From NCBI GenBank assembly GCA_025449845.1, contig JANWIP010000029.1, positions 23,780-87,779 on the forward strand: a DNA stretch of 64,000 nt, given 5' to 3'. The notes beneath the pieces were generated by a model. The model did no database searches. It had not been told where the DNA came from and saw only the letters and a list, made by a program, of their open reading frames with translations. Below, piece after piece: positions 31,400 to 37,205 of the stretch. The translations under genes and the position numbers were made by a program. The DNA comes from Solirubrobacteraceae bacterium. GTDB taxonomy: Bacteria > Actinomycetota > Thermoleophilia > Solirubrobacterales > Solirubrobacteraceae. Position 1 is the first letter of the stretch. Each line of letters starts with the position of its first letter.

Positions 31400-33247
31400 A
31401 TGAGGATCATCGGAGTGAGCGGTATTGAGGGGACGATGGAGTTCAAGCGTCGTCATTGGCCGGGGCTAGAAGAGCGCGAGTACCGCATCTCCCAGGGCCA
31501 CGACTCGGCCGCCGCGCTGGTGGTGGATGGCGAGGTGGTGGCAGCGGTCGCGCAAGAGCGGATCTCAAGACGCAAGCACACGGGCGAATTCCCTCAAGGA
31601 GCGATCGAGAGCTGCCTGGAGCAGGCGGACATGCAGGCGAGCGACGTCGATGCGGTGGTGCACTCCTTTGACTACCAGCCCTATCGCACGATGTACGCCC
31701 TGGACCCGATCTCCAGCGAGTGCTACCGCGATGTGCTCTCCCGCGAGGCTTTTGTCAAACACGTGCGGACGGCGCTGCCGGAGCTGCCCGAGGAGCGCAT
31801 CGGCCATCTCGATCACCACATGGCACACGCCGCCTCCGCTTACTACACGTCCGGCTGGGAGAAGTGCATGGTGGCGGTGATCGACGGAATGGGCGAGGCG
31901 CACGGAGCCACCATCTATCGCGCTGCCGGCGGCAAGCTTGAGCCGGTGCACCGAATCTCGGCGGCCAATTCGATCGGCATTTTCTACTCGGTGGTGACGC
32001 TGCATCTGGGCTTTGATTTCAACTCTGATGAGTACAAGATCATGGGCCTGGCGCCATACGGCGACCCTGAGCGCCACCGCGCGTTCTTCGATGAGGCCGT
32101 GCAGCCGCGCGCCGACGGCGGCTGGGACATCGGACCGCTCAAGCTGAAGGGCACGCGCGAAGAGCGCGAGCGTCACGCGCTCACGCGGGCGCTGCTGGCC
32201 GAGCGACTGATCGCGCCACGCGAGCCTGACAGCGAGATCACAGACGAGCATCGCGATGTGGCGGCTGGCCTGCAGGCGTGCCTGGACCGTGCGATTCTGC
32301 ACATGTGCGGGCATTTCGCCGCGCAACTGGGGATACGCAAGCTTGCGCTGGCAGGCGGCGTGGCGCTGAACACCACCGCCAACGGCCGCCTACTGGCCAG
32401 CGGAGTGGTCGATGAGATCTACGTGCAGCCCGCGGCAGCCGACGATGGCTCGGCGCTCGGCGCGGCCCTGCATCACGCGGCGCAGGCGGGGGAGATTGTC
32501 AACCGCCGCTCACCAACGCCTTTCTACGGCCCTGAGCATCCACTGGAGCGCATCGAGCAGGCGCTGAGCTCCTACGAAGCCGACGGCTGGGAGTCCAGCG
32601 AGGGGGAGACGGACATTGATGTAGAGGTAACCCCCATGCCCAGCCTCGCCGCAACCTGCGAGGCGGCAGCGGAGCTGATCGCGCAAGGCGAGGTGATCGC
32701 GTGGTATCGCGGCCGCATGGAGTTCGGCCCCCGTGCCCTGGGCCACCGCAGCATCATGGCCGACCCTTCAAAGCCCGAGATGCGCGATCGCGTCAATGCG
32801 CTGGTGAAGATGCGCGAGGCCTTCCGCCCTTTTGCTCCGGCCGTAACGCTTGAGCAGGTGCACAGATGGTTTCAGACCGAGCCGGGCACCGAACTGCCCT
32901 ATATGACGGTCAACCTCGACGTGCGCCCCGAGTACCGGGAGGACCTGCCGGCGATCACCCACGTGGATGGCTCGGCGCGAGTGCAGACGGTGAGCACAAA
33001 CGACAATGCCGAGTTTCACGAACTACTCGACGCGGTCGGGCGCCACACAGGCCGCGAGATGGTGCTCAATACGAGCTTCAACGTAAAGGGCCAGGCGATC
33101 GTGAACACGCCGGAGGAGGCAATCGAGACCTTCCTCTCAACCGGCATCCAAGCGCTTTTCTTGCATAACACGATGGTACGTAAACGCGAGGTCTCTAGAA
33201 TCAGCGAGTCGGCCGAGCAGGCCGCAGGAGCAGAGGGGAAGAGATGA
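31400..33247 (+). CDS. Carbamoyltransferase (NodU/CmcH family)
   Basis: 615 aa; 'GHDSAAALVVDGEVVAAVAQERISRRKHTGEFP', 'HHMAHAASAYYTSGW', 'GRMEFGPRALGHRSIMADP'. Confidence 0.95.
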   Translation: MRIIGVSGIEGTMEFKRRHWPGLEEREYRISQGHDSAAALVVDGEVVAAVAQERISRRKHTGEFPQGAIESCLEQADMQASDVDAVVHSFDYQPYRTMYALDPISSECYRDVLSREAFVKHVRTALPELPEERIGHLDHHMAHAASAYYTSGWEKCMVAVIDGMGEAHGATIYRAAGGKLEPVHRISAANSIGIFYSVVTLHLGFDFNSDEYKIMGLAPYGDPERHRAFFDEAVQPRADGGWDIGPLKLKGTREERERHALTRALLAERLIAPREPDSEITDEHRDVAAGLQACLDRAILHMCGHFAAQLGIRKLALAGGVALNTTANGRLLASGVVDEIYVQPAAADDGSALGAALHHAAQAGEIVNRRSPTPFYGPEHPLERIEQALSSYEADGWESSEGETDIDVEVTPMPSLAATCEAAAELIAQGEVIAWYRGRMEFGPRALGHRSIMADPSKPEMRDRVNALVKMREAFRPFAPAVTLEQVHRWFQTEPGTELPYMTVNLDVRPEYREDLPAITHVDGSARVQTVSTNDNAEFHELLDAVGRHTGREMVLNTSFNVKGQAIVNTPEEAIETFLSTGIQALFLHNTMVRKREVSRISESAEQAAGAEGKR

Positions 33248-34257
33248 TGAGGAGCGAGAGCTTTACGGTTTTTTCGACCTGTCCCCAATCGCGGGACATC
33301 TCAAGCGAGGAGTACGCACGCAGCGTGGCCGAGGTGGCCCGCTGGAGTGAGCAGGCGGGCTGCGAGGGAATGTTGGTGTACACCGACAATGGCATCGCCG
33401 ACCCGTGGCTGGTCTCACAGCTGATCCTGACATCGACCGAGCGCCTGGCGCCATTGGTGGCGGTGCAACCGGCCTATATGCACCCTTACTCGGTGGCCAA
33501 GATGGTGACATCGCTGGCGTATATGCACGGCCGCAAGCTGTATCTGAACATGCTGGCGGGGGGCTTCCGCAATGATCTCCTGGCGCTGAACGACCCAACC
33601 CCTCACGATGAGCGCTATGAACGGACGGTGGAGTACACGCAGATCGTGACAGCGCTGCTGGCCGGAGAGACGGTGACGCGCACAGGCAAGTACTACACCG
33701 TCGACAAGCTAAGCCTGACGCCGCCCCTGCCGCAAGAGCTGCAACCGGGAATCCTGATCTCAGGCTCCTCCCCCGCGGGCCTGCAGGCCGCGCACAGCAT
33801 CGGGGCGACGCCCGTGAAGTACCCCAAGCGCGCACACGAGGAGCCCGATCAGCAGGAGGAGGTGCAAGGCGCGGGGATCAGAGTGGGCATCGTCACGCGC
33901 CCGGACTCCCAGGCAGCGTGGCAGGTGGCACACGAGCGCTTTCCCGAGGATCGCAAAGGCCAGATCGCACATACGCTGGCGATGAAGGTGTCAGATTCAC
34001 ACTGGCACCGCCAGCTCTCGGAGATGGCCGGTGAGGAGGGCGAGCGCGACGAGCAGGACCCTTACTGGCTACATCCATTTGAGAACTACTCCACGTTCTG
34101 CCCGTATCTGGTGGGCAGCTATGAGCAGGTGGCAGCCGAGCTGGGGCGCTACGTGCAATTGGGCTATGGCTGTTTCATCCTCGATATACCGCCATCAGAG
34201 GAGGAGCTGCACCACATCGGTGCGGTCTTTGAGCAAACGCGCGCCGCGGTCAAGTGA
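33244..34257 (+). CDS. LLM-class (luciferase-like) flavin-dependent monooxygenase
   Basis: 'LAPLVAVQPAYMHPYSVAKMVTSLAYMHGRKLYLNMLAGGFRNDL' and 'GILISGSSPAGLQAAHSIGA' are alkanesulfonate-monooxygenase-like; ATGA overlap with upstream gene. Confidence 0.88.
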   Translation: MMRSESFTVFSTCPQSRDISSEEYARSVAEVARWSEQAGCEGMLVYTDNGIADPWLVSQLILTSTERLAPLVAVQPAYMHPYSVAKMVTSLAYMHGRKLYLNMLAGGFRNDLLALNDPTPHDERYERTVEYTQIVTALLAGETVTRTGKYYTVDKLSLTPPLPQELQPGILISGSSPAGLQAAHSIGATPVKYPKRAHEEPDQQEEVQGAGIRVGIVTRPDSQAAWQVAHERFPEDRKGQIAHTLAMKVSDSHWHRQLSEMAGEEGERDEQDPYWLHPFENYSTFCPYLVGSYEQVAAELGRYVQLGYGCFILDIPPSEEELHHIGAVFEQTRAAVK

Positions 34258-35816: not shown

Positions 35817-36123
35817 AACAGAAGTCGTAGCGGTCATCGATCGCATCTTCAGCGAGACGCTCAGCATCACACCGCCGGCCCCGGACGTTGACATCATCGA
35901 CGCCGCGCTGCTGGATTCGCTGGGGCTGGTAACGCTGCTGTTCGAGATCGAGCAGGAGCTGGGGCTGCAGATGCCGCTGGAGTCCTTGGAGGTCGACGAC
36001 TTCCGCAGCATCGGGCTGATCGCGCAACTGATCGTGCGTATGCAGAGCGGCAAGCAAGGCAATGTTTTTGAGGAGGGGGATGGGCCGGTGGATGCGGACA
36101 TGAATGGAGCGCAGAGCGCATGA
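35809..36123 (+). CDS. Acyl/peptidyl carrier protein
   Basis: 104 aa; 'DIIDAALLDSLGLVTLLFEIEQELGLQM' with the phosphopantetheine Ser in DSLGL. Confidence 0.88.
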   Translation: MSETEVVAVIDRIFSETLSITPPAPDVDIIDAALLDSLGLVTLLFEIEQELGLQMPLESLEVDDFRSIGLIAQLIVRMQSGKQGNVFEEGDGPVDADMNGAQSA

Positions 36124-37205
36124 GCGAGATCCGTCCCATGCGCCGCGAGGATGTCGAGGAGGTAGCGCACCTCTACCGCTTCGTGGACAACTCCGATTGG
36201 CGTATCCCGGCAGAGGAGCTGCCGACATGGTTCAAGCGCACGCTGTTTGACCACCCTTGGGCTGATCCGGAGATCCCCAGCCTGGTCTACGTGGACGACA
36301 GCGGCGAGATACTGGGCTTCATCGGCTCGCACGTGCGCCGTATGCGCTTTGACGGCCAGCCGCTGCGACTGGCCGCAGGCGGCCCGCTGATCGCCCATCC
36401 CAAGGTGCGCAACCGCGGTGTGGGAGCGCTCCTGTGGCGGCGTTACATAACGGGGCCGCAGGAGCTGACGATTACCGACGGCGCCTCCGAGCAGATGCGC
36501 AAGATCTTCGAGTTGATGGGCGGACAGATGATGCACCCCAGCAGCATGAAGTGGGTACGCGTATTCAGGCCTTGGAGCTATGTGGGCAATCGCGCGCTGT
36601 ACAGCAACATGTGGGTGCGCCACAAGGTCAGGCCGTGGCTGCGCACGACGCTGCCCGCTTTGGATCGTCCCACCACACGCGCGATCTCACGCTTCCATCT
36701 CCCTCCGGCGCAAGGCACGAGCGATGAACTGCTGACGCCCGAGCTGGTGCTGGAGCACATGCCGCAGATCACCCGCTCGCTGCGCCTGGTGCCCGACTAC
36801 GACGAGCAGTTTCTTGAGTGGGTGTTCGAGGAGATGCATTACAACCGCACCTGGGGTCAACCGCATCGGCGACTGGTGCGCGGCGAGGACGGCAGAGTGC
36901 TCGGCTGGTATGTGTACTTCCGTCAACCGCAGGAAAGCTGCATGGTTCTGCAGCTGGCAGCCCAGAGCCGCAATGCGGGAGCGGTGATCGACAATCTGTT
37001 CGCCCACGCCGTGGCAGGCGGCGGTGCTGCGGTGCAAGGCCGGGTAGAGGCACACATCCTCGCGCCCGTGGCCCACCGGGGAGCAATGTTCCGCTTCAAC
37101 GCCAGGTCGCTGGTGCACAGCCCCAATCCCGAACTGATCGGAGCGATCACCTCAGGCCACGCCCTGCTCTCGCGCTTTGAGGGCGAGTGGTGGATGGCGA
37201 CTTAG
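36120..37205 (+). CDS. GNAT-family acyltransferase
   Basis: 361 aa; 'IRPMRREDVEEVAHLYR' and 'LIAHPKVRNRGVGALLWRRYI' (GNAT motif A); ATGA overlap with ACP gene. Confidence 0.82.
   Translation: MSEIRPMRREDVEEVAHLYRFVDNSDWRIPAEELPTWFKRTLFDHPWADPEIPSLVYVDDSGEILGFIGSHVRRMRFDGQPLRLAAGGPLIAHPKVRNRGVGALLWRRYITGPQELTITDGASEQMRKIFELMGGQMMHPSSMKWVRVFRPWSYVGNRALYSNMWVRHKVRPWLRTTLPALDRPTTRAISRFHLPPAQGTSDELLTPELVLEHMPQITRSLRLVPDYDEQFLEWVFEEMHYNRTWGQPHRRLVRGEDGRVLGWYVYFRQPQESCMVLQLAAQSRNAGAVIDNLFAHAVAGGGAAVQGRVEAHILAPVAHRGAMFRFNARSLVHSPNPELIGAITSGHALLSRFEGEWWMAT

Follow-up and report, generated by a model that had tools for sequence, protein, structure and literature searches.

Why should a stand-alone amino-acid adenylation domain, a carrier protein and a flavin-dependent monooxygenase be encoded in the midst of genes for a surface polysaccharide? 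The question is posed by a 64,000-nucleotide stretch of the genome of a soil actinobacterium of the Solirubrobacteraceae (contig JANWIP010000029.1 of assembly GCA_025449845.1, positions 23,780 to 87,779; "the window" in what follows; the host assembly amounts to 3.27 Mb over 36 contigs), in which five plus-strand genes follow one another between positions 31400 and 37205. The answer that we favor, with moderate confidence, is that this operon assembles and modifies an aminoacyl group bound to its own carrier protein, and then hands it on to a sugar of a surface polysaccharide of the Wzx/Wzy type.

A constant trio and its exchangeable partners

The first of the five genes (31400..33247) encodes a NodU/CmcH/NovN-type O-carbamoyltransferase of 615 amino acids (aa), with matches to PF02543 (182 bits) and PF16861 (226 bits). 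It is followed by genes for a flavin mononucleotide (FMN)-dependent luciferase-like monooxygenase (LLM; 33244..34257, 337 aa; AlphaFold2 (AF2) model with a predicted local distance difference test score (pLDDT) of 85), a stand-alone adenylation (A) domain (34254..35816, 520 aa), a stand-alone carrier protein (35809..36123, 104 aa; PF00550, 29.5 bits) with its phosphopantetheine serine in a DSL motif, and a tandem-GNAT acyltransferase (36120..37205, 361 aa). All four junctions are start/stop overlaps: ATGA at 33244/33247, GTGA at 34254/34257, GTGTCTGA at 35809/35816 and ATGA at 36120/36123. A preliminary description, made from the letters of the DNA alone, had placed and named these five open reading frames (ORFs); their positions and overlaps are verified in the sequence, and Pfam scans agree with the family names, although the GNAT matches PF00583 (Acetyltransf_1) only weakly. 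The scan of the A-domain ORF returns the AMP-binding domain together with its C-terminal domain.

Is the cassette a unit elsewhere? Loci were gathered by an A-domain scan of species-representative genomes and then by whole-genome searches with the LLM protein; the resulting table comprises 23 loci with an LLM sharing 54% identity or more with that of the window, and five comparison loci with an LLM at 40-50%. The A-domain scan contributed five loci at 50-59% identity (Conexibacter arvalis, a Phycisphaerales metagenome-assembled genome (MAG), a Terriglobia MAG, Pseudohalioglobus sediminis and a proteobacterial MAG); the succession LLM, A domain, carrier is kept in all of them. An A domain lies near the LLM in 23 of the 23 loci, directly after it and on the same strand in 22 (locus L151 is rearranged), and a carrier protein is found in 22, the remaining locus being at a contig end; conversely, none of the five comparison LLMs has an A domain nearby. 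The trio is spread over four phyla, in Thermoleophilia, Acidobacteriota, Planctomycetota and Pseudomonadota, and this conservation rules out a chance neighborhood. Its distribution is nevertheless patchy, a pattern that fits horizontal spread: the searches found it in 8 of 299 relatives, in 7 of 249 genomes of the host class and in 1 of 339 from that of P. sediminis, while the figures are 11 of 297 for Acidobacteriota and 2 of 300 for Planctomycetota. The LLM, a member of a large family (6545 clusters below 1e-40), is the most constant marker of the module.

All five genes occur together in the window, in a genome of the same family (G201, where the carbamoyltransferase is divergent) and in the proteobacterial MAG locus L017; the GNAT and the carbamoyltransferase are thus less constant than the trio. 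The proposal that the five are conserved as a unit, for which genome co-occurrence had been named as the check, therefore stands for the trio, with its order kept in 22 of 23 loci, and less well for the other two genes, which vary.

Three kinds of partner were seen next to the trio: a formyltransferase (8 loci, among them L013 of Conexibacter arvalis), a carbamoyltransferase (5 loci) and a small acetyltransferase of the RimJ/L type (6 loci). No locus has more than one of them (label permutation, p ~4e-5, uncorrected for phylogeny; with formyl and carbamoyl types only, p 0.06). The type of partner switches at least five times along the LLM tree. Mutual exclusion suggests that the three enzymes do the same job, namely capping an amino (or hydroxyl) group, and this would be the simplest reading. 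The window's carbamoyltransferase aligns over its full length with its nearest solved relatives, NovN, GdmN and TobZ, and homologues adjoin the trio in loci L015, L017, L101 and L151. As the fixed fifth gene that it had been taken for, it is ruled out: it is one of three alternative partners.

The tandem-GNAT fold is predicted with high confidence (AF2 pLDDT 90). Among solved structures it most resembles N-myristoyltransferase and the double-GNAT proteins of Enterococcus faecalis, at template modeling (TM) scores of ~0.55 and 10-13% identity; the GNAT has 754 homologues. The GNAT's membership can be upheld for 12 of the 23 loci, where it stands directly beside the module; it is missing from the rest, and there another transferase may replace it. 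In two genomes (G091 and G094) an initiating sugar transferase separates it from the trio, although both belong to one locus of ~30 kb. GNATs of the PF13480 type are also frequent near the module, and could serve as the transferase where the tandem GNAT is missing.

What is activated, and what is oxidized?

The ten pocket positions of the A domains in the 23 loci were mapped by core motif (locus L104, which has a frame error, L138 and two partial entries are not fully readable), on an assumed correspondence of these motifs with GrsA positions. Extracting this Stachelhaus-type code, as the preliminary description had recommended, gives DLFSVCLIAK in the window and a nearly invariant DLFS[VLI]CLIAK in relatives, with the minor variants DLYSMCLIAK, DLMSICLIAK and DLWSLCLIAK. 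The L102/L151-type A domain has the same ten residues, yet is only ~35% identical to the others overall. (These divergent A domains adjoin the same type of LLM and a hexapeptide acyltransferase.)

The window's A domain (TIGR01733, 388.7 bits against a cut-off of 317.4) keeps Asp235 (D209) and Lys517 (K503). Retention of Asp235 leads one to expect an alpha-amino acid and disfavors a hydroxy acid; of the two kinds of substrate originally entertained, the former is the likelier. DltA accommodates the methyl group of D-alanine (D-Ala) in a cavity lined by Leu, Met and Cys268, whose thiol clashes with L-Ala (PMC8972799). The corresponding positions in the window hold Leu, Phe and Cys; the Asp, Leu and Cys of a DltA-like D-Ala pocket are present by motif mapping as D209, L210 and C280, and are conserved in relatives. 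The substrate is likely to be a small alpha-amino acid, D-Ala or glycine (Gly), to judge by these residues. The ligase model associated with XrtA/PEP-CTERM exopolysaccharide (exosortase-associated; TIGR03098) scores 257 bits, far below its cut-off of 592, and was discarded. The host genome has two matches to phosphopantetheinyl transferases (PPTases) and one PF01613 flavin reductase.

The LLM has the Bac_luciferase domain (PF00296, 110.6 bits) and the TIM-barrel fold of a class C flavin monooxygenase. Its nearest neighbors in sequence and fold are SsuD and MsuD (22-24% identity; TM up to 0.81, for MsuD). Is it, then, a sulfur-scavenging alkanesulfonate monooxygenase? This is ruled out by model scores (111 bits with the SsuD model, whose cut-off is 518) and by residue replacements: Arg226 of SsuD is kept and Cys54 lost, while among the A-linked LLMs His228 is replaced by Gly, Arg297 by Tyr and Tyr331 by Pro, almost uniformly. 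A PF01613 flavin reductase lies within the operon in four Acidobacteriota loci (L138, L140, L141 and L143), as is expected for a two-component monooxygenase. MupA, also an LLM enzyme, hydroxylates its substrate only when bound to an acyl carrier protein (ACP; PMC10952193). That the LLM may oxidize a carrier-tethered group, as had been suggested at the outset, is consistent with this precedent and with the Acidobacteriota reductases. More distant LLM relatives (38-49% identity) on plasmids of Tritonibacter, Gemmobacter, Rhizobium and Streptomyces adjoin AMP-binding proteins, PPTases, halogenases, P450s or nonribosomal peptide synthetases (NRPS), which makes carrier-bound substrates a plausible theme of the LLM clade.

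Two side observations belong here. In three of these plasmid loci (L166, L167 and L169, from Tritonibacter, Rhizobium and Gemmobacter) an LLM at ~48% identity forms part of a compact locus with an AMP-binding protein and a PPTase, and with an acyl-CoA dehydrogenase, halogenase or P450; these resemble small-molecule clusters in which the LLM would act on a carrier-bound intermediate. P. sediminis has a second LLM (45%), which lacks an accompanying A domain; its neighbors include a divergent carbamoyltransferase and a PF13480 GNAT (L152:9288-14329).

A glycan substituent or something else?

The cassette had been described as lying in a polysaccharide locus with three DegT aminotransferases, and both observations hold. 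Upstream are a Wzx-type flippase (23169..24632, minus strand; PF01943, PF13440), two plus-strand DegT-type sugar aminotransferases (24588..25838, PF01041 363 bits, PseC/ArnB-like below cut-off, and a possible source of the amino-sugar acceptor; 25873..27039, PF01041 344 bits) and a plus-strand GT4 glycosyltransferase (28918..30174; PF00534/PF13692), one of several GT4 enzymes in the region; G201 has a copy of it, 65% identical, close to the module (L101 15796-16935). Downstream, on the minus strand, are a polyprenyl-phosphate sugar-1-phosphate (initiating) transferase (41331..42902; PF02397, 213 bits) and a Wzy/O-antigen-ligase family protein (43760..45916; PF04932, 45 bits). Farther along the plus strand comes a GDP-mannose 4,6-dehydratase (55553..56725; TIGR01472, 434.7 against a cut-off of 415 bits; true start probably ~70 codons downstream), overlapped by the gene for the third DegT aminotransferase (56722..57810; PF01041, 360 bits, no NCBIfam cut-off reached); this layout makes a GDP-perosamine-type amino sugar possible. 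The setting recurs: a survey of 129 flanking proteins from 17 loci counted 15 GT4, 8 Wzy_C, 9 PF13480, 5 Wzz and 6 AAA_31 (tyrosine-kinase-like) proteins.

(Other ORFs of the window can be noted in passing. A minus-strand frame just upstream of the cassette, 30251-31363, 370 aa, has no Pfam match, but carries a DTD motif in the hydrophobic stretch LWLMDTDCVWV and is possibly glycosyltransferase-like; it was rejected as a module member, having no homologue near other trios. A GT4, lipid-A-acyltransferase-like, GT4 row at 11446-15034 resembles a phosphatidylinositol-mannoside cluster and looks ordinary. The ORF at 46842-48179 unusually pairs a ribonucleotide-reductase-small-chain/ferritin-like domain with a subsequent SCP2/alkyl-sulfatase C-terminal domain. 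On the minus strand at 57831-62920 lie five paralogous ORFs in tandem, ~296-343 aa long and 55-89% identical; their N-termini resemble signal peptides, none matches an NCBIfam model, and together they form a local array of presumably secreted proteins with no family assigned.)

How might the parts work together? The A domain would activate D-Ala or Gly and load it onto the stand-alone carrier; an intact A domain, its pocket and the carrier serine are all present. The LLM, with reduced FMN supplied by a reductase, would then oxidize the carrier-bound group, as its family and precedent suggest, most likely next to the thioester carbonyl (a hydroxylation) or at the nitrogen. A cap enzyme would modify the amino or the new hydroxyl group, with carbamoyl in the window and with formyl or acetyl in its sister loci; it is mutual exclusion that points to this step. 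Once complete, the acyl group would be transferred by the tandem GNAT from its thioester link on the carrier to an amino sugar; the locus has DegT aminotransferases that could furnish one. The module is most likely a Dlt/RfbKL-like carrier-protein route to an oxidized, N-capped aminoacyl substituent on a glycan. A more daring version, which we consider improbable, has the LLM hydroxylating the amino nitrogen of carrier-bound D-Ala or Gly, so that capping would generate N-formyl or N-acetyl hydroxamates, or an N-hydroxyurea, and turn the glycan into a surface-bound metallophore.

Several points weigh against a modified glycan substituent: substrate, oxidation site, capping site and product are all read from sequence; about half of the trios have no GNAT nearby and must use a different transferase; the LLM's plasmid relatives sit in NRPS-like small-molecule loci; and locus L016, of P. 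sediminis, has no recognizable polysaccharide genes, offering instead a pyruvate dehydrogenase E1-like protein, a TonB receptor, a P450 and an AraC protein. The last two, together with the patchy distribution, are just what one would cite for a free, diffusible small molecule made from a carrier-bound amino acid, the polysaccharide setting then reflecting genomic islands rather than function. This is the least unlikely of the alternatives, but the loci show no condensation, thioesterase or export gene as a shared partner, their flanks repeatedly contain polysaccharide genes across four phyla, and the tandem GNAT recurs with the trio and, in G091 and G094, where it stands apart from it, remains in the same sugar locus.

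Alternatively, the aminoacyl group might be transferred plain, in the manner of Dlt or RfbKL, with the LLM and the carbamoyl-, formyl- or acetyltransferase acting on sugars instead. Ligase-carrier decoration of O-antigen sugars by RfbL/RfbK is known (PMC12208996), D-Ala amides are among the capsule constituents described in PMC10320297 and PMC3210612, and sugar N-formyl- and O-carbamoyltransferases are common; since sugars are often the direct substrates of formyl- and carbamoyltransferases belonging to these families, the cap may miss the aminoacyl group altogether. We nevertheless consider a plain aminoacyl decoration unlikely, given that the most constant gene is that of the LLM, nearly always directly beside the A domain, and that related plasmid LLMs also adjoin carrier-protein genes. 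Yet another possibility keeps the carrier chemistry as proposed and changes the acceptor to a lipid, a protein or a peptide. The likeness of the GNAT to N-myristoyltransferase, a protein acyltransferase, and to the Enterococcus double-GNAT proteins could be read that way, but at such TM scores and identities it indicates a fold class, not an acceptor, and the genomic context is glycan assembly; we think this quite improbable.

If the proposed modification of a glycan substituent is correct, NRPS-style activation, tethered oxidation and capping constitute a widespread route to surface-polysaccharide substituents, spanning Acidobacteriota, Planctomycetota, Thermoleophilia and some Pseudomonadota. 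It would provide a genetic handle on aminoacylated sugars that have been seen by nuclear magnetic resonance and whose enzymes are poorly known, and a new substrate class for LLM monooxygenases, with a recognizable gene signature and directly testable chemistry. N-hydroxylation, if it is what the LLM does, would place metal-chelating groups on many repeat units, among soil bacteria.

Kinship with known systems

With Dlt the window shares a stand-alone A domain, a stand-alone carrier and the pocket Asp, Leu and Cys of DltA. The A domain falls short of the DltA model (TIGR01734; 312.5 against 559.85 bits), and the DltC/AmcB-like carrier of the DltC models (27.1 against 52.35 and 34.6 against 68 bits); no MBOAT (DltB) or DltD family transferase is found among the window ORFs scanned, and the module adds an LLM, a cap enzyme and a GNAT. 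In butirosin biosynthesis the LLM enzyme BtrO hydroxylates an ACP-bound acyl group, the ACP being loaded by an ATP-grasp-type ligase. The window resembles the BtrI/J/O pathway in combining an LLM and a dedicated ACP in one unit; the ATP-grasp-type ligase that loads glutamate is absent, and an AMP-forming A domain takes its place. MupA, unlike the window's LLM, serves a trans-acyltransferase polyketide synthase with a beta-keto substrate. The carbamoyltransferase shares both Pfam domains with NovN, GdmN, TobZ and NodU (PF02543 and PF16861, each over cut-off), but its gene is part of an LLM-A-carrier module within a glycan locus, while those enzymes belong to antibiotic or Nod-factor clusters.

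In Vibrio cholerae O1 the ligase RfbL and the carrier RfbK serve to acylate a sugar of the O-antigen, placing tetronate on perosamine (PMC12208996). The window likewise has an adenylating ligase and a carrier in a surface-polysaccharide locus with an amino sugar, the last as judged from the DegT and gmd genes. RfbL, however, activates 2,4-dihydroxybutanoate rather than an amino acid, and no LLM monooxygenase is named in that report.

The preliminary description knew of no described example with its five-gene set, and open-licence full-text literature likewise yielded no account of LLM, A domain and carrier together, nor of LLM and carrier with a polysaccharide; the literature on Acinetobacter alanine-transfer genes offers the name of an alanine transferase, but no enzyme set. 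The chemistry has closer relatives than the genes. Known glycans bear N-acetyl-D-alanyl, N-acetylglycyl and N-formyl groups on Qui3N and Qui4N (PMC3210612). The part of that source dealing with these O-antigen sugars gives no oxidized or carbamoylated aminoacyl form and does not describe the enzymes; of the known products that it records, N-acetyl-D-alanyl-Qui3N/Qui4N and N-acetylglycyl-Qui4N are chemically the nearest to what the window is predicted to make.

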